Shown here piece after piece: positions 1,503 to 48,792 of a stretch of 48,792 nucleotides of DNA. Each line of letters opens with the position of its first letter. Position 1 is the stretch's first letter. The DNA lies in the IMG/VR virus record IMGVR_UViG_3300045243_000038, positions 1 to 48,792 of that record, one strand, 5' to 3'. A program made the position numbers and the translations under genes. The notes below the pieces were generated by a model. The model saw nothing but the letters and a program-made list of their open reading frames with translations. It was not told the origin of the DNA and ran no database searches. This DNA comes from a virus.

Positions 1503-1522
1503 AACCCGCAACGTTGCGGGTT
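1503..1522. repeat. Dispersed 20-bp palindrome, copy 1 (perfect)
   Basis: AACCCGCAACGTTGCGGGTT lies between the genes ending at 1528 and starting at 1490. It directly precedes the GAGGAG ribosome site of the latter and extends to 22 bp with flanking C and G. Confidence 0.95.
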
Positions 1523-1527
1523 GTGCT

Positions 1528-1815
1528 TTAGAGCGTTCCCGCCACTTGATTCAGGATTTGCTTCTCTTGCCCACCGTTGCCGGCGTCAGCGTAAGCCGTC
1601 ATCAGGCGCGGCACCACGATATCCGTCAGCGTGGTCAGGGTCGCGGCGTCGAGATACGACAGCGCGCTACCAGCGAAATCCGCGTCCGCGAACACGCCGA
1701 GGAAGGGCCGACGCTCGGCGAGGTTCGAGAGCGTGTGGATCGCCTGAAGAAGCTGCTGACAGGCAGCAGCGGCTTGAGTTGCGAGGTTGAGCCGTTGCGG
1801 TTGCTGATTGCCCAC
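1528..1815 (-). CDS. Small protein of the tail region
   Basis: This gene encodes 95 residues from a GTG start preceded by AAGGAG six bases upstream. The protein is acidic to neutral and mostly helical, with no recognised motif. It lies between a tail-fibre-like protein and a helical virion protein in the late block, so a structural or assembly role is likely but cannot be named. Confidence 0.7.
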   Translation of the reverse strand: MGNQQPQRLNLATQAAAACQQLLQAIHTLSNLAERRPFLGVFADADFAGSALSYLDAATLTTLTDIVVPRLMTAYADAGNGGQEKQILNQVAGTL

Positions 1816-1825
1816 AGAATTCTCC

Positions 1826-2887
1826 TTACGCTGCCGGGAAGAACTTCACGTCACCAAGTTTCGCCACGATATCGTTCGTTGCCGCTCCAATGCCAGCCGC
1901 TTGGCCCGTGATCTTCAGGACTTGCGTGTTGGTGAGCGTCAGGCCCGTGACTTCAGTGTAGGCGGTGTACGCGGCCAGAGCAGCCCCTTCCGTCGTGAGT
2001 GAGACCGCGACCCTCACAACTGACGCCGACACGCGGATGCACTTCACAAAGCAATCCCACGCGGCCGACAGCGAAAGGGTGAGCGTGCCGGTGTCGAAGA
2101 CGAGCGTTCCACCGAAGTACACGCGCACCTGCCGCGTGGCCGTGCCGCTCGACACGAACACGCCGGCGTACTGGGCTTCGATCTTGTCGCCGTTCACCGA
2201 GAGCGTTGAAGCGGCGAGCGTGTCAGAGTACAGGTCCGTCTCACCGGTCGTGACGTTGCCGGCATTAACGAAGTGGTCGAAGATCGAACCGCCAACCCGA
2301 GCCGTCGAAGTTGAGCCACCGCACGGCACCGAGGCCGTGCCTCGCGCACCGTCAGCGTCTTCCTGAAACGCTAGTCGTGCCGCCGTGTCGTAAATGTAGT
2401 CTCGACGGCGACCCTTGCGTGTGGCGTCGGTCGAATCGGTCCAAGTCGTGTCGATCCCAACGATGTTGCGGCGGGCGTTCGTGGAAGTCATCTTCTGGAG
2501 TAGCAGATGCCAGAAGTCCGTCGTCGCCGCGCCCGAAAAGTCCTGACCGAGCAGGACGACGGGTCGGCCCGAGTTGTTGGTCCGGACGTAGAGCGGAGCC
2601 GGGTTGTTGGTGCCGTCGTTCGCCCCGATTTGCACGTCTTCGGGAAAGGCAATGAGCCGGGGCGACGTGCCGCTATACGCCTGAAGAACAACGACGCCGG
2701 GATAGAGCCATCGCATCCCCGAGCCGGTGTTGTCCCACTGCACGTTCTGAGCAGCAACGCCATTGGCGAGGAGCACGCGCGGAGAGCCACCCGCGAAGCC
2801 GATGTAGGTTCCCCGGACTGGCGTGGTTTCGGCGAACGGGCCGGACGCCCAGAGGAAACCGATGGTGGGGAGAAGCCCGCTCGCCAT
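1826..2887 (-). CDS. Tail fibre/spike-like protein
   Basis: This 353-residue protein is predicted to be all beta. The first half holds short hydrophobic strands with phage-structural phrases (VLLGQDFSGAATTDFWHLLL); the C-terminal part (about residues 200-350) reads like a jelly-roll receptor-binding domain (YAGVFVSSGTATRQVRVYFGG, then FDTGTLTL). That type of C-terminal domain is common in phage tail fibres and spikes. It starts three bases after the preceding stop, so translation is probably coupled. The host-binding role is inference from fold type and position. Confidence 0.6.
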   Translation of the reverse strand: MASGLLPTIGFLWASGPFAETTPVRGTYIGFAGGSPRVLLANGVAAQNVQWDNTGSGMRWLYPGVVVLQAYSGTSPRLIAFPEDVQIGANDGTNNPAPLYVRTNNSGRPVVLLGQDFSGAATTDFWHLLLQKMTSTNARRNIVGIDTTWTDSTDATRKGRRRDYIYDTAARLAFQEDADGARGTASVPCGGSTSTARVGGSIFDHFVNAGNVTTGETDLYSDTLAASTLSVNGDKIEAQYAGVFVSSGTATRQVRVYFGGTLVFDTGTLTLSLSAAWDCFVKCIRVSASVVRVAVSLTTEGAALAAYTAYTEVTGLTLTNTQVLKITGQAAGIGAATNDIVAKLGDVKFFPAA

Positions 2888-2890
2888 GTC

Positions 2891-3247
2891 TCACCCCAGG
2901 CGGTTCACGAAGCCCGAGACGAGCACCAAGTTCGCGGCGTCGGCAATCGCCTTGACGAGAAGACCGCCGTTCAAACGCAGACCCACGACGACGGGGATGG
3001 GACCGGACGACGGCGGCAGCGATACCGCCTTACACACGAGGTCGTCGGGATCGGTGACACCGCCAAAGCCAATCGTCACCGTCCGGATGTTCGTGTCGGT
3101 GTTGGTAACGAACAGGGTGATCTCATCGAACGATGTAGCCCCCGCGACAGCTGTGTGGATGAGTGTCGCGGAGCCAAGGACCGTGGCTGCGACCTTGATG
3201 GGCCGACCTGAAGTCGAGCCAGACAGGAGTAGAGGCGTGATAATCAC
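2891..3247 (-). CDS. Small beta-rich virion protein
   Basis: The protein has 118 residues and starts with a GTG that overlaps the previous stop (GTGA). Its pattern of alternating strands, including TNTDTNIRTVTIGFGG and PIPVVVGLRLNGG, resembles small beta-sandwich phage structural proteins. It lies in the tail gene cluster. A decoration or tail accessory role is plausible; no family name is claimed. Confidence 0.65.
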   Translation of the reverse strand: MIITPLLLSGSTSGRPIKVAATVLGSATLIHTAVAGATSFDEITLFVTNTDTNIRTVTIGFGGVTDPDDLVCKAVSLPPSSGPIPVVVGLRLNGGLLVKAIADAANLVLVSGFVNRLG

Positions 3248-3537
3248 CCGACGACTCCGTAACTTACACGCGAAGCGAAGGCTCGGCTGGCGAGCGCGGC
3301 CGAGGCGTCTTCAGGATGCGGCAGACGTAGGCTATCCATAAGCGCCACCTTCTGGCCGAACACTTCGGTAGCGAGCACCGATCCGCCGCTCGGACCCACG
3401 GTCCACGCCCCTTGCCCCGTCAGCACGAGATCGCCATTGAAAATGAGTGCGTCGAGAATGTCGGCGATGTGGTCGATCGCGCGCCGCACGCGAAGTTCGG
3501 CCTGTGGGGCACGGGGAACCAGAGAGAGTGTCGCCAC
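3244..3537 (-). CDS. Small virion-cluster protein
   Basis: This gene encodes 97 residues from a GTG start five bases after a dispersed palindrome, and no good Shine-Dalgarno sequence is visible. The start is kept because the frame begins immediately after the palindrome and the stop overlaps the next start as GTGA. The N-terminal half looks helical (residues 15-32) and is followed by short strands. No family recognised. Confidence 0.6.
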   Translation of the reverse strand: MATLSLVPRAPQAELRVRRAIDHIADILDALIFNGDLVLTGQGAWTVGPSGGSVLATEVFGQKVALMDSLRLPHPEDASAALASRAFASRVSYGVVG

Positions 3538-3542
3538 GGTTC

Positions 3543-3562
3543 AACTCGCAACGTTGCGGGTT
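3543..3562. repeat. Dispersed palindrome, copy 2 (one mismatch)
   Basis: AACTCGCAACGTTGCGGGTT fills nearly all of the 24-bp gap between two minus-strand genes and abuts the stop codon of the upstream one. Confidence 0.95.
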
Positions 3563-4365
3563 CACGAGAAGTCGCCGCCGCCGCTCATGCCGTAATCTGC
3601 CGGAGCGTACCCACCCGCATAGCCAACCGCCTCACGCATCGGGTACTCGGCCCCGCCGCCGCCCGTGTAGGTCGGCCCGGTCGCCCACGAACCGAGACCG
3701 CCGCCCATGCCGCCGCCCCCACCCGTGTAATCGACGCTCTCGCCGTAAGTCGGGCCGGGCGCACGAGCCATCGGGTAACCCAACTGCGGACCGGGGATGC
3801 CACCGCCACCCATGCCCATCCCACTCATGCTGCCGTAGGCACCGGGGTTGGGCGCACCGATGCCGATGGAGCCGAGGAACCCCAGCCCAGCCTCGCCGAG
3901 TTGCGTCTGAGCGAGGAGACCCTGTTGTGCGGCCCCTAGACCTGCCAGCCCAATTTGCGACTGATAGCCAGCAATGATGTTAGCGAAGGCGTTGCGGCTG
4001 GCTGTCACCTCGCGTGATCGGCTCCCCGCGATTCCCGTCTGCACACTTGACTGGATCGTGGTGTTGCCGAGACCACGGTTAATGAGGTCTTGGCTCGACT
4101 GGCCCGAGAGCGCGGTGTACTTGCGGTTGATGTCCTGCACGTTCGAGCGGTTGGCACCCCGCAGGCCGCCCAACACTGCGGCCGAGAGCGCTCCGTACTG
4201 CCCTGGCATCGCCGCCCAGCCACTTGCCGCCTGCGCGGCTGTCTGGTTGTAGAGGTTGACGCCACTCCCGATTTGCCCCTGCACGGCACCACGGTAGGCG
4301 TTGTACGCGCCCGGGTAGCTGGACGAGTAACCCGGCAGACTGAACGATCCCATCATTGCGGCCAT
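3562..4365 (-). CDS. Gly-rich virion protein
   Basis: The protein has 267 residues. The N-terminal 150 are Ala/Gln/Gly/Ser-rich and probably helical; the C-terminal 110 are a flexible Gly/Pro/Tyr/Met-rich tail (runs of GGGG). The ATG at 4365 has GGAG eight bases upstream. It follows the nozzle-like gene in the transcript, with an HNH gene inserted between them on the other strand. An internal virion or tail-accessory role is likely, but no family is recognised. Confidence 0.7.
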   Translation of the reverse strand: MAAMMGSFSLPGYSSSYPGAYNAYRGAVQGQIGSGVNLYNQTAAQAASGWAAMPGQYGALSAAVLGGLRGANRSNVQDINRKYTALSGQSSQDLINRGLGNTTIQSSVQTGIAGSRSREVTASRNAFANIIAGYQSQIGLAGLGAAQQGLLAQTQLGEAGLGFLGSIGIGAPNPGAYGSMSGMGMGGGGIPGPQLGYPMARAPGPTYGESVDYTGGGGGMGGGLGSWATGPTYTGGGGAEYPMREAVGYAGGYAPADYGMSGGGDFS

Positions 4366-4383
4366 TACTCATTCTCCACTTCG

Positions 4384-4389
4384 TATAAT
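4384..4389 (+). promoter_or_regulatory. Candidate -10 box for the HNH gene
   Basis: A perfect TATAAT stands out in this GC-rich genome and points toward the plus-strand HNH gene starting at 4455. No convincing -35 hexamer is seen at the usual spacing, so this is a weak call. Confidence 0.3.
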
Positions 4390-4454
4390 AGCGGAGCCGA
4401 GAAGATCGTGAGTCTCCCCGGCCCCTGAACACAACCCGTGTAGAGGCACGAGTC

Positions 4455-4853
4455 ATGTCCGACAATCAGTCTACGGTTGAGTACCGCCCAATTCCAGGAT
4501 TCCCCGGCTACCGTGCTGGCAACGATGGCAGTGTGTGGAGTCAGTGGAAGTGCATTGCTTTGGGCCGGCCACACGGATTTCATTGGGCTATTGGTGATGA
4601 ATGGCACCGACTGAAAACACTTACGGTTCGCAAGGGGTATCTTCAGATAACCCTTCGGCGCAACGGCAAGAGTTTTCAGAGGACAGTTCATCGTGTCGTG
4701 CTCGAATCCTTTGTTGGCCCTAAACCCAAGAAACACGAGTGTCGTCATTTCCCAGACCGCAACCCTGCGAACAACGCTCTCGTCAACCTTTCGTGGGCCA
4801 CACGCGAACAGAATGAGGCTGACAAGAAGTTCCATCGTGCCCAAAAGGTCTAA
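4455..4853 (+). CDS. NUMOD4/HNH homing endonuclease
   Basis: This 132-residue protein has the NUMOD4 motif near its N-terminus (IPGFPGYRAGNDGSVWS, residues 13-29) and an HNH nuclease core with H79, H98, N111 and N120 in the usual VHR...CRHFPDRN...NLSWATREQN arrangement. Such enzymes cut an intron-less or gene-less target and copy their own gene into it. It is the only plus-strand gene inside the late minus-strand block. Its TAA stop overlaps the TAG stop of the converging nozzle-like gene by two bases. GAGG lies before the ATG, and a TATAAT lies 65 bases upstream. The family call is strong; the activity is untested. Confidence 0.88.
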   Translation: MSDNQSTVEYRPIPGFPGYRAGNDGSVWSQWKCIALGRPHGFHWAIGDEWHRLKTLTVRKGYLQITLRRNGKSFQRTVHRVVLESFVGPKPKKHECRHFPDRNPANNALVNLSWATREQNEADKKFHRAQKV

Positions 4854-6463
4854 CGGCCGCGACGCCTGACTTTACTAACTTGGACGGGTAGGGCCGCTCT
4901 AATTGATTCGAGCGCCCAGGGACTTACACCTTTGAGCCGAATATAAATTGCGTGCCCCGCCCGGCGGATCGCCTGCGTCAAGTTCCGACCCGGCCCGAAC
5001 GTCCCACTCATCACCGGCGTTGATACTAACGCCTCTTCGGCCGTCGTACCCACAAGAATCTCATAGGTGACGGGATCGCTCACCTCCGCGAACGCACCCT
5101 GAATCGACTTCAGCATCACCTCATCCATGTTGGCCGTCAGGATGGGGCCGATGATGACTTCGCTCGCAATCGCTACCCCATCGTCGTCCTCAGCGGTGTA
5201 GACAGCAGCCCGCACATACCCATCCCACGAGCCGATGAGGCACACCCGATCCCCCGGCAGGTTGCCGTCGAGCGTCACGCAAGCGAGCGGGTTGTGGTTC
5301 TTGTTGGTGAAGCTGTCGGTCCACCACGCATTCGTCCGCAGTTCGTAGAAGAAGTGCGTCGTGGCCGCTACCGCGTCGAGTTGGGTGACCCAGACGTGCA
5401 ACCCCTGGAACCGATCATCCCACTGGAGCCGCACGCCGTTCTTGCCCGTGTCGATCGCGCGGAGGAGTTGGTCGATCGCCGTACTCACCTGCACCGGAGC
5501 CTGACCGGGTACGAGTGTGTAGATGACGCCCAAGTTCGACATGAAGTAGATCGTGCCCGTGGGGTCCATACACCACGCCTGCCCCCACGCCGCGCCAATC
5601 GAGCTCGACACGAGATCGACTTGACCGCCCGCCATCGGGTCACCACGCATCATGTAGATCGTGTGGTCGCCGAGGAAGATCAGCACGTCATCGGTGTAGG
5701 GGATCATCCCCGTCACCACGTCGCCGATCAGCCCGAGCGAGGAGTTGTTGCCAGCGACGGCCTGCGTCGCGCTGGGATCGACCGGGTTATCGTCGAAGTT
5801 CGTCGGATCGCTCACCTTCGACATGAACCAGTTCTGAGAATCTTTGATGAGGCCCGAGAGCACGGTCCGCCCGCGCCAAGTGCAGATCAGCCTTGGCTTG
5901 TTGCCATCACTATCCACTGGCAGCGTGCCGGCCGAAGCAACCCAGGTGTTGACCGTGTTGTTGGACGGGTTGTAGAAGACCCAGTTCGCACCGTCGGCGA
6001 AGTACAACTTCTGGTTGTTGGCCGCCGACTGCATGACGCCCGTAAAGTTGAGCGGCGGGTTGTTGCCCGTGTTGTTGGTCGGCGTCGTCCACGCCACGTC
6101 GCCCGGCACGGCGACGTACACATTGCCCTGACTCACCGCGACCAGAGTAACAACGCGACCGGATTGAGAACCTTGCACGGGACCACCAGTGCTGGGGTAA
6201 CCGACGCCTACGAGCACGTCGAGTTGCTGAATGAGCCAATCGGCGACGACCGCCTGCGGAATGTACTTCACCAACCCCGGCCGCGATCCGCCGCGCGTCC
6301 GCTGCTCGTGCGGCTCGAACGCCCGCACGTTGTTGCCGACCGCGCAGGTGTAAAGGACATCGCCATCGGGACCTGGGCGGCGCGGCCAGCGGTTGAAGCC
6401 GAGGGAGAGGTCGATCCCTGCCTTCGGGAAGTGGAGACTGAGGTATTGTTCGCTATCGGCCAT
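4850..6463 (-). CDS. Tail nozzle-like beta-propeller protein
   Basis: The protein has 537 residues. The start is the ATG at 6463, immediately after the palindrome; reading further upstream would translate the palindrome. The N-terminus has the phrase VGNNVRA followed by RTRGGSRPGLVKYI (about residues 42-68), typical of proteins that open with an ordered arm. The body has repeated four-strand blades (for example DVLIFLGDHTIYMMRGDP and GTIYFMSNLGVIYTL), as in the nozzle or tubular proteins of podovirus tails. It follows a shorter gene with a related N-terminus (6486-7541). The nozzle role is inferred from the blade pattern, the RPG motif and the neighbourhood. Confidence 0.65.
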   Translation of the reverse strand: MADSEQYLSLHFPKAGIDLSLGFNRWPRRPGPDGDVLYTCAVGNNVRAFEPHEQRTRGGSRPGLVKYIPQAVVADWLIQQLDVLVGVGYPSTGGPVQGSQSGRVVTLVAVSQGNVYVAVPGDVAWTTPTNNTGNNPPLNFTGVMQSAANNQKLYFADGANWVFYNPSNNTVNTWVASAGTLPVDSDGNKPRLICTWRGRTVLSGLIKDSQNWFMSKVSDPTNFDDNPVDPSATQAVAGNNSSLGLIGDVVTGMIPYTDDVLIFLGDHTIYMMRGDPMAGGQVDLVSSSIGAAWGQAWCMDPTGTIYFMSNLGVIYTLVPGQAPVQVSTAIDQLLRAIDTGKNGVRLQWDDRFQGLHVWVTQLDAVAATTHFFYELRTNAWWTDSFTNKNHNPLACVTLDGNLPGDRVCLIGSWDGYVRAAVYTAEDDDGVAIASEVIIGPILTANMDEVMLKSIQGAFAEVSDPVTYEILVGTTAEEALVSTPVMSGTFGPGRNLTQAIRRAGHAIYIRLKGVSPWALESIRAALPVQVSKVRRRGR

Positions 6464-6466
6464 CTC

Positions 6467-6486
6467 AACTCGCAACGTTGCGGGTT
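6467..6486. repeat. Dispersed palindrome, copy 3 (one mismatch)
   Basis: AACTCGCAACGTTGCGGGTT occupies essentially the whole gap between the paralogous tail genes, touching the upstream stop codon and ending three bases before the next ATG. Confidence 0.95.
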
Positions 6487-7541
6487 CACGGGTGCTTCTT
6501 GAACGTCGCGGCGACAAGCGCCGAGAACGTGCTATCGAGTTGGAAGTTGATGTTGACAGTACCCACTCCCAGCCCCAGCCGATCCGCCACGGACGCAGTA
6601 CCACCCCCACCAACCGGGTTTTGCCGCTCATTCGTCACAGGCGTCGTCGGCGGCGTGATCGTGACGCCATAACCACCCAGGGACACCACAACCACATCCC
6701 CCGTTGAAGCGGCAATGGCCCCGGTCGCAATCGTTGTCGTCACACCGTCGTTTTGTTCCGCCGTACCCGAAGCGTCGAGAACGCCGACCGTGGCTGCGCC
6801 GCTGTAGTTGAGGAGCGTCACGTTGCAGTTGTTGGCCCCTGCCGAGGGTGTTACCTGCACCGTCTTGTCATTGGCGACACCCGTTGAGACCAGAAACCAG
6901 AGTGACACGCGATCGTGGAAGTCGCCGACGTTCGACGGCGCGACGCCGGCGTGGGCATAGGAACCGGCCTGCGTATAGGGCGTGCCACCGCCGTTCGTCA
7001 CCGTGACGGTGGGATTGGGGTCACCTGCACCAGCATCTTGCGATTCCGTGGAAATGCAGGCGACAAGGAGCGAGCCGGAGGCGACGGCACTGGGCAGGAC
7101 GACCGAACCGATACCACCCCCACCGACGATGAGGCTTGCGGCCTGCTGGACGAACTTGATCGAACCCGGTCCCGGCGGCGGGCTGGCATTCTGGTTGGGT
7201 TGGTTGCCCCATCCGCCCAGCGGCACGAACTGGCCGGGATTGCGCGGATCGGGAACCCACGTTCCGTCGGGCGTGAGGAAGTTCTGGCGGAGCGCCTGTT
7301 CGGTCGGGTCCACGATGTAGTTCAAATGCTGAACGAGCTGCGCGCCGCCGGGAATCTGGCCGGCGATGTACTTCACCAGCCCCGGCCGCTGACCACCACG
7401 AGCACGCAACCCGAGCACGTCACGAGCCCGCACGTTGTTACCAACGGGCGTGGTCTGCGGGGGCTGCTCCTCGAACTCGCTGTTGAGTTCGAGACCCTTT
7501 AGGGGGAAGTCGAGGGGAACGTAGCGCTCAGCGTCGGGCAT
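6486..7541 (-). CDS. Tail protein sharing an N-terminal arm with the nozzle-like protein
   Basis: The protein has 351 residues. Its first 80 match the neighbouring 537-residue protein (both have a D-A/S-E-x-Y start, then VGNNVRA, a RARGG or RTRGG segment and RPGLVKYI). The remainder differs: a Pro/Gly-rich hinge (residues 95-130) and a beta-rich domain of Thr/Val/Gly strands resembling phage fibre or adhesin domains. The shared arm suggests both attach to the same partner in the virion, one as nozzle and one as appendage; that is inference. The start is three bases after the previous stop. Confidence 0.65.
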   Translation of the reverse strand: MPDAERYVPLDFPLKGLELNSEFEEQPPQTTPVGNNVRARDVLGLRARGGQRPGLVKYIAGQIPGGAQLVQHLNYIVDPTEQALRQNFLTPDGTWVPDPRNPGQFVPLGGWGNQPNQNASPPPGPGSIKFVQQAASLIVGGGGIGSVVLPSAVASGSLLVACISTESQDAGAGDPNPTVTVTNGGGTPYTQAGSYAHAGVAPSNVGDFHDRVSLWFLVSTGVANDKTVQVTPSAGANNCNVTLLNYSGAATVGVLDASGTAEQNDGVTTTIATGAIAASTGDVVVVSLGGYGVTITPPTTPVTNERQNPVGGGGTASVADRLGLGVGTVNINFQLDSTFSALVAATFKKHP

Positions 7542-7544
7542 GTG

Positions 7545-7823
7545 TCAATCCGTGGTCTGATCCCAGATGAGCCCCAGCGTCGCCAGTTGGTCAAGTAGGT
7601 TATCGAGCGCTTGATTGCCGCCGGTGCAGCCGGTGACGGTGGGTTTGATGATCGGCGCGAACCCGTAGAAGCCGAGTTTCGAGAGATCAGAGCCGATGAT
7701 GACGTAACTGCCACCGCCGGCTTCCTCTTCGGGATAAGCCTGAAAAACTACTTCCCGGTCGTCCCCACTCCTCGCTTCAATCGCCGCTCGCACGACGACA
7801 GGTTCACTGTAAAAGGTTGCCAT
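7545..7823 (-). CDS. Small fibre-type virion protein
   Basis: This 92-residue protein ends with a pattern common in short phage fibre or head-fibre proteins: a strand (SYVIIGSDLSKLGFYG), then PIIKPTVTG and a helix (ALDNLLDQLATLGLI). The last part looks like a trimerising helix. It sits between tail genes. The family is suggested from memory of such sequences only. Confidence 0.6.
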   Translation of the reverse strand: MATFYSEPVVVRAAIEARSGDDREVVFQAYPEEEAGGGSYVIIGSDLSKLGFYGFAPIIKPTVTGCTGGNQALDNLLDQLATLGLIWDQTTD

Positions 7824-7844
7824 CGGAATCCCTGGGCTGGCCGT

Positions 7845-8162
7845 TCAAGTAAGACTCCAAGCTCCACCCGTCGAGTCACCGACGTAGGCGCTATCGAGGG
7901 TAAACGTCGTCGGTGTTGGCGTCGAGAGTAGCGCATGGTTCACATTATAATCCGTGCGCGACGTTCCACTGATAGTGACATCCGGTATGCCAGTTATCCC
8001 GTGCGGCGCGGCTGTCGTCACGAGCAGTGAAAATGGATCGCCACCATTTTGAACAATGGTCAGAATCGTGTGGGCAGCATCAACGCCACCTCCCGACTGC
8101 CCGACCGGCCGCTTGACCCGCACCGGCCGCTTCAGGCGTCTCGTTCGCACGGCCGTCTCCAC
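7845..8162 (-). CDS. Small beta-domain tail protein
   Basis: The protein has 105 residues from the GTG at 8162, chosen because GAGG lies six bases upstream and the preceding gene stops at 8171; a longer frame exists but would overlap that gene. The N-terminal 25 residues are Arg-rich. The rest resembles the small Ig-like or tail-completion domains that carry a HGITGIPDVTISGT-type turn followed by TFTLDSAYVG. A virion role is likely. Confidence 0.55.
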   Translation of the reverse strand: METAVRTRRLKRPVRVKRPVGQSGGGVDAAHTILTIVQNGGDPFSLLVTTAAPHGITGIPDVTISGTSRTDYNVNHALLSTPTPTTFTLDSAYVGDSTGGAWSLT

Positions 8163-8170
8163 ACGACACC

Positions 8171-8806
8171 TCAGTACATGGCGACAAGCGCGTTGCAACT
8201 CGTGGCAACGCCGCCCGTCGTGAAGGTCAGTTCGAGCTTCTGAAACCCCTTCATGTCCACGACAAGGCACCCGGCATTGGCATCATTGGCCGGCGAGTTG
8301 ATGTCGATGTTTTGCCCGTCCTTCCCGCTCGTACCGACAACAGCGATGGTGTCAGCAAAAAGTTCCGTGGCGAGTACCACCCCGCCGGCCGCACCGTGAG
8401 CGTTAGCCGACACCGTACAGAGGACTTCACACAGAAGCACCGGAATCCACACGGCGTCGGAGACTTCCGGCGGGTACTTGCCGTGCGGCTTCTGCCGGTC
8501 ATAGGCGATGCGCCAGCCGATGACTCGCACCGAGAACGTGTTGTTGTCGGCCCCCACGGCGAACGGGCAGATGATGACAAGGTTCTCGGCAAGGCCACCT
8601 TCGGCCGGGTCAGTGAGGTCGAAGACGGCACTGGTGGTCTGTGCCGCTGCATCGCCGATTCCGGTTGGCTCCGTCACCACACCCGCAGCCGACACCCCCG
8701 CAAGAACACCTTGGCGCGTGGGGAAGCCGTTGTCCGTCGTGTTGGTGCGCCGGGCACGGGTGAAATACTTCGAGAGTGTCTGAAGTGCTACTTGGTTGTC
8801 GGCCAC
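8171..8806 (-). CDS. Virion protein, unrecognised
   Basis: The protein has 211 residues. The GTG start has GGAGGG seven bases upstream, just after the palindrome at 8828. The sequence is strand-rich with long hydrophobic stretches (ENLVIICPFAVG, AVWIPVLLCEVLCTVSA) but no signal peptide, and ends in a strand pair. Position among tail genes suggests a structural protein, such as a decoration or connector accessory. No family is recognised. Confidence 0.65.
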   Translation of the reverse strand: MADNQVALQTLSKYFTRARRTNTTDNGFPTRQGVLAGVSAAGVVTEPTGIGDAAAQTTSAVFDLTDPAEGGLAENLVIICPFAVGADNNTFSVRVIGWRIAYDRQKPHGKYPPEVSDAVWIPVLLCEVLCTVSANAHGAAGGVVLATELFADTIAVVGTSGKDGQNIDINSPANDANAGCLVVDMKGFQKLELTFTTGGVATSCNALVAMY

Positions 8807-8827
8807 GGCTCACCCTCCGGCTGGGTC

Positions 8828-8847
8828 AACTCGCAACGTTGCGGGTT
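8828..8847. repeat. Dispersed palindrome, copy 4 (one mismatch)
   Basis: AACTCGCAACGTTGCGGGTT fills the gap between the membrane-protein gene ending at 8849 and the GTG start at 8806, just upstream of that start's GGAGGG. Confidence 0.95.
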
Positions 8848-8848
8848 G

Positions 8849-9154
8849 TCACTTCTGCGGAACGACCGGCGGGATCGCGGGCATTGGCACCGGAGCGGCC
8901 GGAGCGCACGGGCTCGCCACCACGACGGCTGCACCACACGAGCTAGCACCGCGAGTTCCGGTCAGGAATCGCGGGAACAGCATCGGTCGGCTCTCGGCAC
9001 CGAGAGCCGCGCGACGGTGTTCGACCACTCGCAGCAAGGGACCGGCTTGCGCCGAGAGTGCGCACACGAGCGAGCCCAGGATGAACACCAGGACCGCCAA
9101 GAAGGCGGTGAAAAGGAACCCAAGGTTCCGGTCGAGATCACGGATCAATCCCAT
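8849..9154 (-). CDS. Small membrane protein of the lysis-like group
   Basis: This 101-residue protein starts at the ATG at 9154, with GGAG six bases upstream. Residues 11-32 form one strong membrane helix (LGFLFTAFLAVLVFILGSLVC). The following region has several Arg and Cys residues, and the C-terminus is Pro-rich. With its neighbours it forms a row of short membrane proteins beside a secreted peptidase, as in phage lysis cassettes. A spanin or holin accessory role is possible; nothing in the sequence decides. Confidence 0.6.
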   Translation of the reverse strand: MGLIRDLDRNLGFLFTAFLAVLVFILGSLVCALSAQAGPLLRVVEHRRAALGAESRPMLFPRFLTGTRGASSCGAAVVVASPCAPAAPVPMPAIPPVVPQK

Positions 9155-9323
9155 CGTTAACTCCTGTGATGGTGTTCTTGAAGTCTTCCACCCACGCATC
9201 GTCGACCAACAGCGCTGCGAACGGCAGCACGGCTACGCAGAGAGCCAGAAGTCCCAAGATGACGAGAAAGTACCACCAGTTCGTCTCGAAGCACCAGTTG
9301 TACTCGGGATCGCCTCCGGACAT
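9138..9323 (-). CDS. Short membrane protein overlapping the peptidase gene
   Basis: The protein has 61 residues with a single membrane helix (YFLVILGLLALCVAVLPFAALL, about residues 17-38) and an acidic C-terminus. The ATG at 9323 has GAGG seven bases upstream. The gene begins inside the 3' end of the peptidase gene in another frame, overlapping it by 91 bp, and its own end overlaps the next start by 17 bp. Such nesting is typical of phage lysis genes. A holin-like or spanin-like function is inference. Confidence 0.6.
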   Translation of the reverse strand: MSGGDPEYNWCFETNWWYFLVILGLLALCVAVLPFAALLVDDAWVEDFKNTITGVNDGIDP

Positions 9324-10588
9324 GGCATCCTCGCTGGCGGGGGAGCGGGCGGCGGCACGGGCGGGAACGGAGGAACCGGCGGGATCGGGATGTTGAGGCC
9401 CAGGTCCTTCATCAGTTGAAAGATCGAGGTCTCGATCATCTGGATATTTTTGCTCTGGATCGACATCCACAGCATGAGCACATCCATCATGATCGCCTGC
9501 CAGTTGGGCGCTGCCCCATAGGTCGCCTTCAGGGCCGCCAACATCCGGTCGTGCGCGGCCTGATGCACGGCATCGAGCTGCGGCACGCCGGGCGTCACGG
9601 CCACCAGCACACCGTTCTGGTAGGTCAACGTGCCGCTAAACCCCACGCCGGGCACGGGCGGCTGCGGTGGGACCGGGGGGATTGGCGGAATCGGTGGGAT
9701 CGGCGGCACGGGAGGAGCCGGCGGGAGCATTCCGACCGTGGTGGGGTTCCGCACGTAGGCTTCCGCACAGGTTCCGTCAATCCAATCCTGATCGACAAAA
9801 CCGACCGTATTCCACGTGTAGAGGATGTAGCCGAAGCGGTCGGCGGGCACTGCGGCCGGCAACGGCTGGCCCATCGCCTGATAGCAGAAGGCCGCCGACC
9901 CGTACCCAAAGAGGGGTACACAGTGGTCCGTGTTGGGATAGTCCCCCTTGCCTAACCCGTACCAACCCGACTTGTTCCCGGCCCCGCTCGGCAGCGCGTT
10001 GGCGTCGATGGCGATGTTCACCGGCCCGACGTACAACGCCGCGCTCAAATCGGCCGTCTTCGTGTAATCCACCGAGTAGTAGGAGCCTTCCCGGTATGTC
10101 GCACCACCCACGCTCATGCCCGTCTTTTGCATCACGTCCATGACTTCGGTGAGCGTTGCCCCATTCAGCCAACCGTGCTTCCGCGCGAAGGCGATCACCT
10201 CAGCATCCGTGGCGCACACTTCCTTGTCCGCACCAAGACAGCGGGTTGACCACGCGGCGAGGCTCGCCGCCGTCTGCGCACTCACGCAGTCGCCGTACTG
10301 GTTGTTGCCCCAATAGCTCGTCTTGGGCGGCACGGCGGCGAATTTGTCGGGCGCGGCGAACGCCGGACGAAACTGCGGGACCGCCATCATCTTCGCATTG
10401 GTGGTCCGCTTCGCGCCGCGAGGGAAGCCCTTGGCTGGCGCGGGTGCCGGCTGCGGGGCGGGCTGTGTCGCAACGATCAGGTGTTTCCCGGTGGGGTCGT
10501 TGAACCACTCGACGCCCGGGGGCTGCGCCGGCGCGGCGGCCAGCGGCAGGACGAAGAGACCCAGAACGAGGAACATAACACGGCGCAT
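9233..10588 (-). CDS. Secreted papain-like cysteine peptidase
   Basis: The protein has 451 residues from the ATG at 10588 (GAGGG upstream). Residues 1-21 are a signal peptide (MRRVMFLVLGLFVLPLAAAPA). The papain-type catalytic set is visible: C101 in NNQYGDCVSAQ, H222 in YPNTDHCVPLFGYG and N260 in YTWNTVGFVD. The domain (about 85-290) is followed by a stiff repeat of PP(I/V)PPIPP, a short helical domain, and a second Pro-rich stretch. The last 30 residues share DNA with the following membrane-protein gene. It could act in lysis or on protein-rich layers of a planctomycete envelope; it could also be a virion or surface enzyme. The fold is fairly sure, the role is inferred. Confidence 0.75.
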   Translation of the reverse strand: MRRVMFLVLGLFVLPLAAAPAQPPGVEWFNDPTGKHLIVATQPAPQPAPAPAKGFPRGAKRTTNAKMMAVPQFRPAFAAPDKFAAVPPKTSYWGNNQYGDCVSAQTAASLAAWSTRCLGADKEVCATDAEVIAFARKHGWLNGATLTEVMDVMQKTGMSVGGATYREGSYYSVDYTKTADLSAALYVGPVNIAIDANALPSGAGNKSGWYGLGKGDYPNTDHCVPLFGYGSAAFCYQAMGQPLPAAVPADRFGYILYTWNTVGFVDQDWIDGTCAEAYVRNPTTVGMLPPAPPVPPIPPIPPIPPVPPQPPVPGVGFSGTLTYQNGVLVAVTPGVPQLDAVHQAAHDRMLAALKATYGAAPNWQAIMMDVLMLWMSIQSKNIQMIETSIFQLMKDLGLNIPIPPVPPFPPVPPPAPPPARMPCPEAIPSTTGASRRTGGTFSSSWDFWLSA

Positions 10589-10602
10589 GAAACCCTCAGT
10601 GG

Positions 10603-10875: not shown

Positions 10876-10883
10876 AAGACACC

Positions 10884-40228: not shown

Positions 40229-40235
40229 AACCAAG

Positions 40236-40262: not shown

Positions 40263-40264
40263 TT

Positions 40265-40625: not shown

Positions 40626-41081
40626 ATGAACTGGCTCCTCGCCAAACTGTTCGGCCCACCCGAGGAGATCAACGGGCACGGCCGCTGCCCGACCTACCTC
40701 TATCGCTGGGCGATTCTGCGGCTCTTGGGGTGTGCCGTCTACATCCACCGCTTTGTCGGCGACGACTGGTCACTGGACTTGCACGACCATCCCAAGCGGT
40801 TCATCTCGATTGGCCTGTGGGGGAGTTACGTCGAGCACACGCCGAAGGGGGCGAAGAGGTTCCGCGCGCCGTGGCTGCGGACCTTCCCGGCGAAGCACAT
40901 TCACCGCGTCACAGTAGACAAAAGGCAGGAGTGTTGGACGCTGGTGATCGTCTTCCGGGGCTATCGGCAGTGGGGATTCTGGCATTTGGGGCGCTGGATA
41001 CACTGGAAGAGTTACGTTCGTGGGGCCGATGCTAACATTGCCGACAAGCAGGCGGTGTGTCAGGGCATCGGAGAAGAGTAG
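40626..41081 (+). CDS. Cupin-like phage protein
   Basis: The protein has 151 residues from the ATG at 40626 (GAGGG upstream). TYLYRWAILRLLGCAVYIHRF, DLHDHPKRFISIGLWGSY, RAPWLRTFPAKHIHRVTV and CWTLVIVFRGYRQWGFW fit a small cupin barrel with His residues (HDH, HIHR) that could bind a metal. Similar proteins are frequent in phage genomes; the substrate is unknown. It begins a group of accessory genes after the terminator. Confidence 0.72.
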   Translation: MNWLLAKLFGPPEEINGHGRCPTYLYRWAILRLLGCAVYIHRFVGDDWSLDLHDHPKRFISIGLWGSYVEHTPKGAKRFRAPWLRTFPAKHIHRVTVDKRQECWTLVIVFRGYRQWGFWHLGRWIHWKSYVRGADANIADKQAVCQGIGEE

Positions 41082-41083
41082 GC

Positions 41084-41103
41084 AACTCGCAACGTTGCGG
41101 GTT
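41084..41103. repeat. Dispersed palindrome, copy 20 (one mismatch)
   Basis: AACTCGCAACGTTGCGGGTT lies two bases after the cupin-like gene. Confidence 0.95.
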
Positions 41104-42712: not shown

Positions 42713-43536
42713 CCGCGACCCGCACCGACGACCGGCCTCTCTCCACCGAGGACGCGATGCTGGCCGCCATCGCGGCACAGCCGGACGACGACGCGGCGCG
42801 GCTTGTCTACGCGGACTTCTTGGATGAGCGCGGGGAGGGCGACGATGCCGACCGGGCCGAGTTCATCAGGCTGCAAATCTCACTGGTCGGCCATCCTGTC
42901 CACCACAAAGCCGAAACCGGCTGTCCACTTCGCCGCCGCGAACGCGCCCTCCTCGCCGCCAACCCCGCGTGGAGCCGGTGCGAATGCCCGGCGTGTGGGG
43001 GCGAGGGTCACAGACGACCGGGGCCGCTTTGCGTTGTGTGCGAGGGGACTGGTGACCTGTTCGTGCGGCGCGGCGACGCCTGGACACCTCGCACCCTCGA
43101 CCGCCGCCGCTTCCCGCTGCTGGGCGTGGGCTGTCGCCTTGAGGAACTGGCGGTGGAGGAGACGGGCGAGTGCGGGCGATGCCGAAGATTGCTTCGTCCC
43201 CAACCCGGTTCACATTGTCCCGACTGTTCCGGGCGCGGCACCGTCCCCTCCCCGTGGGCGCGGGCCGTGGTCGGGGCGGTGCCGATGCTGCGAGCGCTGG
43301 TGATCAGCGACCGGGCACCGGAGGACACTGGGAGTCGTGAATGGGCGTTTGTGCGAGAGGAGCCAGCACGACCAGCGCTCCGTGCTTATTATCTACCGGC
43401 GCTCATATTCGATCAACTCAAGGGTTGGCATCGAGAGAGTGAGGGGTTTGGAATCCGGTACTGGCACGACCGCGCTGCCGCCCTCGACGCGCTGGCCTGC
43501 GCCGCCGCCCGGTTCGCACGTGGGGTCGGGTCGTGA
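42709..43536 (+). CDS. TIGR02996 domain protein with DnaJ-type zinc fingers
   Basis: The protein has 275 residues from a GTG. Residues 14-60 are a clear TIGR02996 domain (EDAMLAAIAAQPDDDAARLVYADFLDERGEGDDADRAEFIRLQI). Then come zinc-finger pairs of the DnaJ type (CECPACGGEGHRRPGPLCVVCEGTGDLF and CGRCRRLL... CPDCSGRG), and an alpha/beta C-terminus. TIGR02996 is strongly linked to Gemmata, so this points to the host. Its stop codon is followed by a palindrome that separates it from the converging giant gene. Confidence 0.78.
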   Translation: MTATRTDDRPLSTEDAMLAAIAAQPDDDAARLVYADFLDERGEGDDADRAEFIRLQISLVGHPVHHKAETGCPLRRRERALLAANPAWSRCECPACGGEGHRRPGPLCVVCEGTGDLFVRRGDAWTPRTLDRRRFPLLGVGCRLEELAVEETGECGRCRRLLRPQPGSHCPDCSGRGTVPSPWARAVVGAVPMLRALVISDRAPEDTGSREWAFVREEPARPALRAYYLPALIFDQLKGWHRESEGFGIRYWHDRAAALDALACAAARFARGVGS

Positions 43537-43555
43537 ACTCGCAACGTTGCGGGTT
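43536..43555. repeat. Dispersed palindrome, copy 21 (one mismatch)
   Basis: AACTCGCAACGTTGCGGGTT fills the 21-bp gap between the converging ends of the early and late blocks. Confidence 0.95.
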
Positions 43556-43557
43556 GG

Positions 43558-46500
43558 TCATTTCCCCATCGGTCGCACCGGCACAGTCATTTCGCGGTGC
43601 GGCGCACCCGGAGCCTGACCCCGGAACTTGACGCCGAAGGGACCGAGCATCTTCATTGCCCGCTCCTCAGCGGGCACCTCCTTGCGCGGAGCCTTCAACC
43701 CCACTTCCTTATTCACAAGCGGTTCGACCCACGATTCCAGAACGGGGTTCACCTGGAATAGCCCCGCGTAGGCATTGAGCATCTTCTGGCTCTCACCCAG
43801 CTTGACATCGGCCTTCGGTGCCACCTGAGCACCGAGCGTGTTCTTGCCGGTGAACCCCGTGTAGAGCGCCGCCGGCAGTGGGCCGACCGCCGGGTGAATG
43901 ACCGCGTGTGCCATATCGTCAACGGCGTGGTCGAAGGCATCGCCCTTCGTCGCCCCCTTGGCGAGCGCCCCCGCCCGCTGCTGTTCGGCCAGAGCGAGTA
44001 GCCCCGTCTCGCGCATTCCGCGCGTGACACCGATCAGCCCGCCGAGGTCGAGGTAACTGGTCTTCCCGTCCTTGCCGGTCCCCACCTTGATCCCCGTCAG
44101 CGGAGTCTTGTCGTCGCCATCCCAGCGACCCCAAAGCACCATGTTGAGACCAGCGGCGAGAGCAGGCAGGAGGGCCGTGCGGAAGATCATCTCGGCGCGA
44201 AGTTTGAGATCGGCTTCCCGAGAAGTCGTCCGGTAGCCGTGGCTCCCCGCGAGCGACCGCAACCCCTGGACGTAGAAGTTCGTCCCCGCCGTGGCGAAGG
44301 GGCCGATCCCCGTGTCTCGTAGCCATGCGACCATCCGGCTCTGCGTCGCCTTGTTGTAGTTCCCGAGTTGGTTGATGAAGTCGCGGCGAGCGCCTTCCGA
44401 AGCGTCCACCCCCTCGCGCTTGGAGATCACATCGAAGGCGTGGTCGGCGGTGAGCCGCATGGCCCGGTCCACCACCGTCATCGTCTTGCCAAGGAAGTCG
44501 GTCACCCAGTTGATCGGGTTGTACTTGCCACCGGGCAAAAGGTGTTCACTCTCGAACCCGTGTTCCTTCATGGCCCCCATCTCGGCCAGTTCAGCCACCC
44601 GCTTCATCAAGTCTTTGTCACCCGTCATGAGCCGCCTCACGTTGCGGATGAACCCAATCGGATTCATCCCCGGCCGCGTGAGGAGAGTAAACAAGTTGCG
44701 AACGTGGTAAGTAAACTCTATTGTCGATGCCAAAACAGCCTTGGCGAGCACCGCAGCAAAGGGCAACCGCGACGGCGGATCATTGCCCACACCCAAGGCT
44801 TGCTTGATGTCCTTGAACGTGTCGGGATGCACCCAAAGATCGGTCTGCCCCGCCGTGGCTTCCTGTGTGCCCTTGGGTGGCCTGACTTCGGGCAACTTCT
44901 CCCAACCTTCGGGACCGCCTTCCTGGGGCGTTGACCACTTCCCAATGCCTTCTGAGACGAGTGTACGGTAGAGCGAAGCCTTGGCCGCGTTCGGCACAAG
45001 CGACTGTAGGTCCGCTTCGATGATCCGGCCTAGATCAATCTCGTAGTGGCCCGTACCCTGGAACTCCTTCGACTGCCCGAGCTTCCGGGCACGGTGAGCG
45101 GTGAGGCTCCCGCGTGCCGAGCCGCCGGGCGAGTTGAACCGCTCCGCACCTTCGGGGAGCGCGAGCCGGTAGATCGGCCGACCCGGTATCTGCGTCGGGC
45201 CGCTGATCGCGTCTTCGTCGGCTAACCCCTGCGACTTGCGGAAGTAGTCTTCCTTCAGCGGGACGTACTCCTTCTGGTAGCGCTGGATCGCTTCCTGTAC
45301 CCACGGCTCGTTCCGCAAGGCTTGGTAGTCGGCCTCGCTCTTGAACGGGTTGGCCTCGAACTCTTCCGGCGTGCGGCCGCTGCGGATGATGGTTCCGACC
45401 TTTGCGGCAGCTTTCCGGGATGCTTCCGCCGAGGCCATCCGCTTGTCGCGCTCCGCGATGAGATCGGCCAGCCGATCCTTTGCACCAATCCTTCGAGCGG
45501 CTTTGATTTGCTCACGGATCACGGCCAGTGCCCGTTCTTCAGCAGCGGCGTTGCCGAGGTGGTATTCGCGGGCGTGCCGCAATGAGTCCTCGACCATGAC
45601 GCCACCCACCGCGTCTCGGTGGTAGGCGCTCGCGTGCTCGGGATCGGTGAGGATGCGATCCAGCATGTTCGGCGTCATCTCGCGGGCGAAGTGCCCAGCC
45701 GAACCCACCCGTGCAATCTGATCGGCGCTCTTCTCGCTCAGGCGGTTCGTGGCCGGCGACACTTGACCGGCGAGCTTACCCCACCAGTCGCTAAACGTCT
45801 GCCACCAGCGCCGCCCGCTCTCGGCGGCGTGTTCGGCGGTGGCTGGATCGAGCGGTCGCATGGCACCGGGACTGCCCGGTGTGCCCGGCGACGTGGCAGC
45901 GGCATTCTCCGCAATCTTGCCCGCGATCATCGCGGTGGCCGATGCCTCCGTGGCTGTCGGTCGTTGCCGGGGCGGAATCCTGTGTAGAGCACGCCCACCA
46001 CCCATTTGCTCTTGCTGTCGATAGCGCATCTCCAACACCCGCTGTTGAGCTTCACGCGCCACTGCATTTGCCGCCGTCTCGCCAAAGAGTTTGACCGCAT
46101 CCTTGCGGAGCGTTTCATAAGTCACCTCGCTACTCGCCGCCCGCTCAGCGTCCCGCACGCTCTCGCCAGCCATGAGCGCCTTGACACCTTCCTTCCGCGC
46201 ATCCGACAGGCCCGACTCGTCGATCAGCCGCTCGTGCTCGGGATCGAGAACGCGATCCGTTTCACTCTCGGTGACGACCGGCCGGTTCACGTCCACATCC
46301 GCCCCGGCCTCGCGGTAGGCTTCAACGACTTCCGGCGGCTCGGCTCGCCGTTCCTCTTTCGTCATCGTGTCCCAAAGGTGTTGCGCGGCCTGCGCATCAA
46401 AGGCAGACTGAGGCCGAGCCGGGGTTTCGGCAGGCGCACCTTCGGTGTCTTGGCGAACCCCAGGAGGTGCGGCAGGTGTCCGCTCTTGAGGAGCGCGACC

Positions 46501-48792
46501 TTGTGTGCCGGCTTCAATGCCTTGAACAAAGCCGTCGCGTACCTTCGCTTGTACGTCCTCAACCACGGGTCGCGCAACTCCGGCAGGTTCCCCTCCATGA
46601 ACCCCGGCGCGTCCTGTGTCGCTTGGTATCCGAGCGGCGGCATCATTCACCTCTTTCGTAGTTTCGGGCTTGGGTTCAACCCGCAACGTTGCGGGTTCGT
46701 GTCCTCGTCGAGCAGCTTCCCCAACATGCAATTCAATCGGTTCCAGACCCCTTGCCGCACGCTCTTGGTTGGCCTGTTCCACAAGCCCCCTCAAACGCTC
46801 GAACTGTGGCCCTTCCGCCGGCCCTCGGTACTTGATCGCCGACAGGGCCGGGTGTATGTACATCGGGGCTTGTGCCCCGATCTGCACGTCCCGCTCACCC
46901 CGGTTGACGACATCACCTTCCCCGCCGAGCCGGTCGTTGCGGAATTCGATCTGAACATGGCCCTTGTATCCGGCGTTCCCCTCGAAATTCCGACTGAACC
47001 ACTTACCCGCGAACTGGTTACCCACCAATTCACGCACGGCAGCATCTACGTTGTCGGCGGCACCCTTCGAGTCCGGCACCCGGTAGTAGCGTTCGGCGGC
47101 CTCCCCAGGCTTCACAGGAGCCGCAATCCCACCCGTGGCAGTGATATTCCCCGTCTGAACGCTCCGAGGGCGTGGCGGGCCTTCTGGGGGCTGTGGCACG
47201 TCAGGGGGCTGTTCGGGCGGACGATTCGGCTGACGCATCAATTCGTCCCGAACGGCATCGAGATTCTTCTGAATGTCGATGCGTTCCCGACGTGCTCGGC
47301 GTAGTTCGGTCTCGGCTTTGGCGAAAGCGTCCTGCGCGTCGCCCGGGGCATTGAGCACTTGGGCACGCTGGCGGGCCGAACGCTCTGAACGCTCCGCAGC
47401 GGCTACTCGCTCGTCAGACTTGTTGCGGAGTTCGGTCAGCCGGTCCGAGCGGGCGCGAGGATCAGCGGGCAGTTGTTCGGCTTCAACTCGCAACGTTGCG
47501 GGTTGGCTCTCCTCGAACTTCTTTGCGCGTCGCATGACATCCGCGATCCGTTCCGTGAGTGACGACGGCTGCTCGGTCCCCGGCACCTTCATCTTCGCCA
47601 ACACCTCGGCGGCGTCGGGCTGGTTGGCATTGATGACATCGGCAACGCGTTTCCCGAACTCGGCGAGCGCAGCCCCGGCCATGTCGGGCGGCAGGCCGGT
47701 GGCCTTGAGTTTGTCGATATCTTCCTTCGCGCTCTTGAGTGCGTCGTGAGCCGCGCCCACGTCTAGCTCGCCCGCGATCCTGTCGGACGCCTTGTGCAGT
47801 CCCGTGAAGGCTGCGAAGGTGAGGAACTGACCCACCCCCTGTTTCAGCGCCTCGCCTTCCTTGCCGGCCATCAGGTTCTCGAACGTCCCATACCCCGTAC
47901 TGATCTTCCAGGTGTCGGGTGTGAGGAACTTGTCCGCGAAGTTGGTGGCGCTATCGACCGCCCCCTGTTCGAGCACGCCAGCCCCAGCCTTCGCCATCGC
48001 ACCGCCGAAGCCCTTCCGCGTGATCCCTTGCTGGAACTTGTTGAGGACGAGCAGGTTGGCGTACCCGTGCAGCCCGGCCGCCGAGAGACCGCGCCAGTCC
48101 GAGGGGTCGCGCCCCTGTGCGATGTTCTTCTCCTTCGCCTCTTCCCAGTACATGCTCGGCATGGTGGGCAGGAGTGCGGCCGTGCGTCCGAGGTTGGCCC
48201 GGGAGATGAGGGCCGCTTCCTCGCCGGTCGCACCACCCGCCGCTGCTAAACCGCGACCGAGCGAGCCGGGAGCCACGGCACCAAGGCCACGCAGAGCGGC
48301 CGAGCCGACGACGGCTTCCTGCGCCATCTTGGGAACACTCAGGATGCCGTGAGCAATTTCGGCGGCATCGCGCGAACCGAAGATGGTGCCTTCCTTCGCC
48401 ACTTGCTGAAGGTACTCGTAGCGTGCGATCCGCTCCGCGTCGCCGGGATTGGGTGAGCCGTCCTTGTAGCGCTTGAGCGCCGCCTGATACTTGCTCGTGC
48501 CCTTGGCGTCGAAGAGGTCGGCAAGACCCAGCCCGGATCGCAAGAACTCACCGCCGGTGTCCGCCGCACCGAACCCCTGTTCCTTCTGCTTCTGGCGGGC
48601 GAGGTCGAGTTCGTAGGATTGCCCGAGCCGCTTGACGGCTTCCTGCCCGAACCCCTTGGCCTTCAGGATTTGCTGCTGTTCTTCGAGCGGTCGGCCGACA
48701 GCAACGCCGGCTGCGTGCGAGCGGGCCGCGTATTCCCCGGGCGTCAACTCCTGCCCGAGATTTCCCGGCGTCCAGGTGTCAACAGTCGTGGG
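43558..48792 (-). CDS. Giant internal/polyvalent virion protein, main part
   Basis: Together with 1-193 this gene encodes 1766 residues; this window part holds residues 23-1766. The N-terminal third is helical and charged (for example EQQQILKAKGF and ALKSAKEDIDKLKATG). The middle has long Arg/Glu/Gln helices, Pro-rich linkers and a small alpha/beta domain (near RYYRVPDSKG, GYKGHVQIEFRND). The C-terminal third holds hydrophobic helices (TYHVRNLFTLLTRPG, RTALLPALAAGLNMVLWGRW) and a conserved-looking domain (LDLGGLIGVTRGMRETGLLALAEQQ). Size, position as last late gene and composition fit a podovirus inner-core or ejection protein, or a large polyvalent protein delivered with DNA. Two palindromes lie in frame. 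Confidence 0.78.
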   Translation of the reverse strand, partial: PTTVDTWTPGNLGQELTPGEYAARSHAAGVAVGRPLEEQQQILKAKGFGQEAVKRLGQSYELDLARQKQKEQGFGAADTGGEFLRSGLGLADLFDAKGTSKYQAALKRYKDGSPNPGDAERIARYEYLQQVAKEGTIFGSRDAAEIAHGILSVPKMAQEAVVGSAALRGLGAVAPGSLGRGLAAAGGATGEEAALISRANLGRTAALLPTMPSMYWEEAKEKNIAQGRDPSDWRGLSAAGLHGYANLLVLNKFQQGITRKGFGGAMAKAGAGVLEQGAVDSATNFADKFLTPDTWKISTGYGTFENLMAGKEGEALKQGVGQFLTFAAFTGLHKASDRIAGELDVGAAHDALKSAKEDIDKLKATGLPPDMAGAALAEFGKRVADVINANQPDAAEVLAKMKVPGTEQPSSLTERIADVMRRAKKFEESQPATLRVEAEQLPADPRARSDRLTELRNKSDERVAAAERSERSARQRAQVLNAPGDAQDAFAKAETELRRARRERIDIQKNLDAVRDELMRQPNRPPEQPPDVPQPPEGPPRPRSVQTGNITATGGIAAPVKPGEAAERYYRVPDSKGAADNVDAAVRELVGNQFAGKWFSRNFEGNAGYKGHVQIEFRNDRLGGEGDVVNRGERDVQIGAQAPMYIHPALSAIKYRGPAEGPQFERLRGLVEQANQERAARGLEPIELHVGEAARRGHEPATLRVEPKPETTKEVNDAAARIPSDTGRAGVHGGEPAGVARPVVEDVQAKVRDGFVQGIEAGTQGRAPQERTPAAPPGVRQDTEGAPAETPARPQSAFDAQAAQHLWDTMTKEERRAEPPEVVEAYREAGADVDVNRPVVTESETDRVLDPEHERLIDESGLSDARKEGVKALMAGESVRDAERAASSEVTYETLRKDAVKLFGETAANAVAREAQQRVLEMRYRQQEQMGGGRALHRIPPRQRPTATEASATAMIAGKIAENAAATSPGTPGSPGAMRPLDPATAEHAAESGRRWWQTFSDWWGKLAGQVSPATNRLSEKSADQIARVGSAGHFAREMTPNMLDRILTDPEHASAYHRDAVGGVMVEDSLRHAREYHLGNAAAEERALAVIREQIKAARRIGAKDRLADLIAERDKRMASAEASRKAAAKVGTIIRSGRTPEEFEANPFKSEADYQALRNEPWVQEAIQRYQKEYVPLKEDYFRKSQGLADEDAISGPTQIPGRPIYRLALPEGAERFNSPGGSARGSLTAHRARKLGQSKEFQGTGHYEIDLGRIIEADLQSLVPNAAKASLYRTLVSEGIGKWSTPQEGGPEGWEKLPEVRPPKGTQEATAGQTDLWVHPDTFKDIKQALGVGNDPPSRLPFAAVLAKAVLASTIEFTYHVRNLFTLLTRPGMNPIGFIRNVRRLMTGDKDLMKRVAELAEMGAMKEHGFESEHLLPGGKYNPINWVTDFLGKTMTVVDRAMRLTADHAFDVISKREGVDASEGARRDFINQLGNYNKATQSRMVAWLRDTGIGPFATAGTNFYVQGLRSLAGSHGYRTTSREADLKLRAEMIFRTALLPALAAGLNMVLWGRWDGDDKTPLTGIKVGTGKDGKTSYLDLGGLIGVTRGMRETGLLALAEQQRAGALAKGATKGDAFDHAVDDMAHAVIHPAVGPLPAALYTGFTGKNTLGAQVAPKADVKLGESQKMLNAYAGLFQVNPVLESWVEPLVNKEVGLKAPRKEVPAEERAMKMLGPFGVKFRGQAPGAPHREMTVPVRPMGK
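46678..46697. repeat. Dispersed palindrome, copy 22 (perfect, inside giant gene)
   Basis: AACCCGCAACGTTGCGGGTT is read in frame as PATLRV near residue 722, flanked by Glu/Pro/Lys linker sequence. Confidence 0.95.
47485..47504. repeat. Dispersed palindrome, copy 23 (one mismatch, inside giant gene)
   Basis: AACTCGCAACGTTGCGGGTT is read in frame as PATLRV near residue 453, between charged helices. Confidence 0.95.
48666..48792. repeat. Terminal direct repeat, right copy
   Basis: Identical to 1-127; see the left copy. Bases here are counted twice if the contig is treated as linear. Confidence 0.95.

Follow-up and report, generated by a model that had tools for sequence, protein, structure and literature searches.

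Evenly Spaced, Phage-Specific Palindromes as Probable Binding Sites of a ParB-Like Protein in a Viral Genome

In the case of B. subtilis spo0J, the parS sequence is located within the parB gene itself. The phage-plasmid N15 carries the centromere sites of its sop system as inverted repeats dispersed on the phage genome, and KorB of plasmid RK2 works together with KorA/OA and IncC. Known ParB-type dimers load at their site, close with CTP and slide (PMC8429893, PMC11790492). The 16-bp NBS sites of Noc are scattered round the Bacillus chromosome and are not clustered at the origin (PMC8429893), and KorB, a CTP clamp of the ParB family, exerts silencing across distances above 1 kb (PMC11790492). 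The stoperators of cluster A mycobacteriophages, up to 30 per genome, are asymmetric 13-bp sequences aligned mostly in one direction relative to transcription, and their sequence is phage-specific and tracks the cognate protein (PMC6550527). No report of phage palindrome arrays such as those described below was found in the literature (open-licence papers).

The DNA analysed here, a viral sequence of 48,792 bp (IMG/VR record IMGVR_UViG_3300045243_000038, hereafter the window), carries 23 copies of the 20-bp palindrome AACYCGCAACGTTGCGRGTT, detected by direct sequence scan at every position given in an earlier note on this DNA. Twelve copies are perfect, nine carry one change (AACTCG on the plus strand in eight, the other orientation in the copy at 24007) and two carry two changes (25685 and 34771). 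The next-best 20-mers in the window show six mismatches, and 0.00 copies with two or fewer mismatches are expected by chance in order-2 Markov sequence. The leftward-transcribed structural half includes the copies starting at 1503, 3543, 6467, 8828, 11384, 13878, 14916, 17191, 18613, 21600 and 24007 (1503..24026). These are followed by the copies at 25685 (degenerate), 26896, 28711, 31397, 34165, 34771 (degenerate), 37148, 38761 and 41084 (25685..41103), the rightward, early-type genes starting at about 26 kb. The last stretch (43536..47504) includes the copies at 43536, 46678 and 47485, the latter two being inside a giant leftward gene (43558-48747). Other genes on the plus strand include those for a CsrA-family protein (30478-30651; Pfam CsrA, E=1.2e-9) and for a protein containing an extended tract of GYGSGD-type repeats (29867-30478).

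A direct terminal repeat of 127 bp (1..127, identical to 48666-48792) shows that the genome is closed and 48,665 bp long. The circular gaps between the copies range from 606 to 3142 bp, with a mean of 2116 bp and a CV of 0.33. In 20,000 random placements neither this evenness nor so small a largest gap was reached, in agreement with the earlier claim that the spacing is too even for chance. The result was unchanged when 14 sites in the null were constrained to intergenic or gene-edge positions. The same note had placed fourteen copies in intergenic gaps. Judged by gene calls from a simple purpose-made caller, 11 copies are wholly intergenic, 3 lie across a gene end and 9 are within genes; intergenic and gene-edge copies together make up 14 of 23, against 15.6% of positions (P=1e-6). 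Several gene-internal copies are in the same reading frame (..ATLRV.. five times).

Among 84,980 bacterial and archaeal genomes (257 Gb), two matches to the palindrome were detected, each isolated and with terminator-like flanks, A- and T-rich in one case and preceded by an A-run in the other. A host-type iterated palindrome of the HIP1 type, once suggested as a precedent, is thus not supported. Within IMG/VR one other contig (L004) has the window palindrome, in six copies. The absence of position conservation in related phages had been named beforehand as refuting a regulatory array; the outcome was the opposite, four of the six L004 copies being located at places syntenic with the window. 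At two of the syntenic places the flanks are 0.72-0.79 identical (random pairs, 0.72) and at a third 0.78-0.80, slightly above background, and at all three the site is identical at 19-20 of 20 positions. Since the sites were kept at this level while the flanks diverged to or near background, they are under selection, whatever their binder. The comparison with L004 also showed a sharp mosaicism: terminase-adjacent ORFs (L004 747-1592, window 23797-24681) are 80-96% identical, the terminases just 32%. A relaxed pattern matched contigs L005-L010, which were set aside as lone palindromes sharing the GCAACGTTGC core, without a ParB-like gene. Single perfect 20-bp palindromes with this core are located in unrelated viruses at L006 1386, L009 5220, L010 11358 and L007 8166.

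Relatives of the window phage were collected by terminase and then scanned for dispersed palindromes, with site thresholds set per genome. Dispersed palindromes were found in roughly a dozen of them, each phage having its own and the sequences being unrelated: 22 copies of GTGGGGAATTCCCCAC in G007 (37 kb), 14 of ATGCGCAAGNCTTGCGCAT in G005 (15 kb), 12-18 of GGGCGTCACSGTGACGCCC in G010, 10-11 of GGTAGATCANNNTGATCTACC in G014, 11-14 of GAGGGTGYMTCAANTTGAKRCACCCTC in G025, eight of CAGGTGAG-N8-CTCACCTG in G022, and smaller copy numbers in G008, G009, G011, G012, G023, G024 and G003. The expected numbers are near zero (0.33 for G010 and 0.17 for the two-copy pattern of G003). Two candidates were not counted as arrays, the pattern of G020 (expected count 2.83) and the repeated element of G013, which is located near the contig ends and is not dispersed. 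Among 99 unrelated control viral loci, three showed a palindrome family, one of them being the G005 record itself. The evenness of spacing is significant in the window (G000) and G007, weak in G006, G010, G012 and G014, and not significant in the others. The inverted repeats of G022 (L232-L234), G023 (L235-L237) and G020 (L226-L228) have an asymmetric G-run/C-run centre, present in both orientations, in contrast to the fully symmetric sites elsewhere. An unrelated large virus (85-kb record) carries 7 and 4 copies of GACCCC-N3-GGGGTC (L094, 627-7581; L060, 11364-13347), with even-looking spacing, no ParB-like gene and an RNA-like TTCG loop.

One gene is tied to the sites in these phages. The window encodes on its plus strand a ParB-like protein of 272 residues (34211..35029), consisting of a ParB_N-like domain, an HTH and a C-terminal domain, which is the proposed binder of the palindrome. 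A perfect copy (34165..34184) is located 26 bp upstream of its start codon and is possibly an autoregulatory site, and the degenerate copy at 34771..34790 lies within the gene, at codon 188 in the linker after the HTH. Neither the XRE nor the ParB protein could be pointed to as the binder by presence in all array phages, as single-sequence and HTH_3 searches found neither to be shared. A scan of viral sequences with the window ParB gave no match, and one with an alignment of the G012, G014 and G025 proteins matched only those three. It was only the clustering of all predicted proteins that revealed the ParB-like family, a divergent one. With a uniform site call, the copy inside the window gene (G000) has a counterpart within the ParB-like gene of 8 other phages, G003, G009, G012, G014, G022, G023, G024 and G025, while in G010 the site is located 7 bp past the stop codon of this gene and in G011 about 45 bp upstream of the gene. 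An internal site is thus present in 9 of 11 genomes (expected 1.98, P=2e-6) and a site within 100 bp in 11 of 11 (expected 2.4, P=6e-9). Of the 28 gene families tested the ParB-like family alone stands out, the next giving P=0.42 and 0.016, respectively, and the test for internal sites is conservative because the null places sites uniformly and the sites prefer gene gaps. The suggestion of multiple ParB sites as a precedent is supported by this result, the ParB-like family being the only one tied to sites in the other phages.

Similarity between the ParB-like proteins tracks similarity between the sites (Mantel r=0.55, p=0.007, ten genomes), a signal driven mainly by one clade whose genomes may resemble each other in other genes. 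The sites of G012, G014 and G025 have a YCA-N3-TGR centre in common with several viruses of the fresh set described below. No ParB-like gene was found in the 37-kb contig of the array phage G007, which is possibly incomplete, or in the fragments G005, G006 and G008, and no clear internal palindrome was found in the ParB-like gene of G001, G020, G031, W02, W04 or W05-W10. G031, which has its own ParB-like gene, carries near-matches to classical bacterial parS at 17068 and 35545 (L255-L256; TGTTTCATATGAAACA and TGTTTCATTTGAAACA).

On sequence and model grounds, the window protein is assigned to the ParB superfamily. It matches the ParB-like PHROG 1033 with E=2.7e-10, and the family profile A3 matches Noc (6e-12, best), Spo0J (7e-9) and KorB (8e-4) in the PDB, as well as ParB. 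AlphaFold modelled the window protein with moderate confidence (pLDDT 72.7, pTM 0.44), and the top 34 Foldseek matches of the model all belong to the ParB family (ParB 6e-8; KorB also a strong match). As a single sequence the protein gave no Pfam ParB_N match, and this Pfam family alone is too insensitive here. The window protein is divergent, being 12-20% identical to the other members, and was joined to them by profile and fold only. An HTH DNA-binding domain follows the N domain in alignment A3 (helices 105-144 in the model), and the family alignment shows Box II/III-like motifs, a likeness at the level of motifs.

Sixteen records of more distant ParB-like relatives in named phages, none used in forming the idea, were examined as a fresh set. 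A long palindrome inside the own ParB-like gene, usually in a single copy, was detected in seven of the sixteen: W01 (Methanoculleus virus Blf4), W03 (Dulem virus 33), MT836101, MT836946, MT838641, MT839531 and MT837290. These palindromes are 20-31 bp in length and rank 1-3 among the inverted repeats of their records, and the YCA-N3-TGR centre recurs in many internal palindromes. No such palindrome was found in the Heliusvirales-type records (W02, W05-W09), W04 or W10. MT835519 has a three-copy palindrome family with one copy at the parB-like gene, and G027, a relative lacking an array, has a perfect 22-bp palindrome within its ParB-like gene.

Taken together, the 23 palindromes are probably specific binding and loading sites, similar to parS, NBS or OB, for the ParB-like protein of the phage itself. 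Counting against this reading are the divergence of the window protein, the G007 array without a ParB-like gene in its contig, the ParB-like genes with no clear internal palindrome and the dominance of one clade in the Mantel signal. If it behaves like ParB, Noc and KorB, the protein would bind the dyad as a dimer, take up CTP, shut into a clamp and slide along adjacent DNA. We infer that the ancestral site may have been a single one inside the parB-like gene, as retained in many bacterial and archaeal viruses, that it was multiplied into an array in the group to which the window phage belongs, and that site and protein could have changed specificity together. Because a site is present every 2.1 kb or so and no gap exceeds 3.1 kb, no stretch of the genome would be out of reach of sliding clamps, an arrangement better suited to a general coat or organiser than to control of a single promoter. 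The most likely role of the protein would be coating or compaction of phage DNA during replication, and KorB-like silencing may be its output. The proposal in full, namely that a ParA-independent ParB-type CTP clamp coats or compacts the whole phage genome in lytic infection from an even, self-specific array, which arose by multiplication of an ancestral parS within the parB-like gene, site and protein having changed together so fast that relatives share no site sequence, is offered tentatively, as falling somewhat short of an even chance.

The main alternative concerns another role for the same ParB-like machinery. Clamps sliding from the sites could silence distant promoters in the manner of KorB, thereby timing the early and late genes. 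The concentration of palindromes in gene gaps and the place of KorB among the top fold and profile matches are consistent with such global silencing, whereas the even spacing, and the fact that some copies lie deep within long genes, point to coverage of the genome and away from promoter control. Silencing as the principal role is a serious candidate, though on balance not the expected one, and coating or compaction is favoured.

A different binder is assumed if the array is one of operators or stoperators, at which a phage repressor such as the 85-residue XRE-type HTH protein (18338..18595, minus strand; HTH_3, E=3e-12) blocks transcription from the gene-gap palindromes. The perfect copy at 18613 is located 17 bp upstream of the XRE start, the spread over gene gaps is of a density similar to that of stoperators, and the palindrome sequence differs phage by phage. 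The palindromes are, however, symmetric with no fixed direction, the XRE protein was found only in the window among the array phages, no integrase was found in array phages (above the family cut-off only in the array-less G017, G027 and G029), and the tie to the ParB-like gene would be left unexplained, making this reading unlikely. Of the stoperator precedent proposed in the earlier note, the spread-out layout holds, and the asymmetry and orientation of known stoperators do not, nor was an integrase found to go with it. Another, small protein (21598..21834, minus strand), the end of whose gene carries copy 21600, had been labelled winged-helix and gave no Pfam match.

Partition, in which the same binder would use the copies as several centromeres to maintain the phage in a plasmid-like carrier state, could draw on the ParB family itself and on the single internal site of many viruses, which resembles a centromere, but ParA (PF13614) was absent in all 15 phages searched and centromere sites are usually clustered rather than evenly spread. 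The lack of both ParA and integrase in the array phages argues against classical partition and integrated lysogeny alike, and partition is judged a poor candidate. RNA hairpins serving as terminators or processing signals are very improbable, since the strong folding of perfect copies (-14.6 kcal/mol) is offset by a T-tract after 0 of 23 copies, a C-A mismatch on the transcribed strand that weakens 7 of 9 variant copies to -5.1 kcal/mol, and a palindrome centre as conserved as the arms. A host-type iterated palindrome or mobile REP-like element, for which the several in-frame copies within proteins (..PATLRV..) would be expected, has next to no likelihood given the two isolated matches in the 84,980 genomes, the different sequence in each phage and the conservation of copies where the flanks diverged to background.

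For the preferred reading as sites of the ParB-like protein, several consequences follow. Phages that lack ParA can carry ParB-like genes, whose function is usually left open, and a probable site inside the gene, multiplied across the whole genome in one phage group, makes this function directly testable. Many pairs of a ParB and its specific site thereby become available from nature, and the findings suggest that CTP-dependent clamps may help phages to organise or mark the DNA of their own genomes.

Among the described systems, N15 sop differs from the array in having few sites, SopA and a prophage state. Tens of sites per phage genome and a phage-specific sequence are shared with the stoperators, which serve the immunity repressor of temperate phages, whereas the window sites are symmetric and unoriented. 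The ParB fold and the palindromic, parS-like sites are as in ParABS, and the location of parS in or near the par locus has its parallel in the 11 of 11 genomes above; unlike ParABS, there is no ParA, and the window sites are spread genome-wide. KorB and its OB sites are alike in the dispersed palindromes on one mobile genome, in the ParB-family clamp (CTP use here being by analogy), in a protein that is not solely a centromere binder and in the strong fold match to the window protein, but no ParA-type partner was found in the array phages, and the sites are far more numerous and more evenly spaced. In contrast to Noc, the protein would act on a phage genome with a site every 2 kb, the array phage relatives have wholly different site sequences, and an N-terminal amphipathic membrane helix is absent from the model, which starts with a strand (3-8; moderate confidence). 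In common with Noc and NBS, the window combines a ParB-family protein with dispersed sites, Noc being the best PDB profile match.
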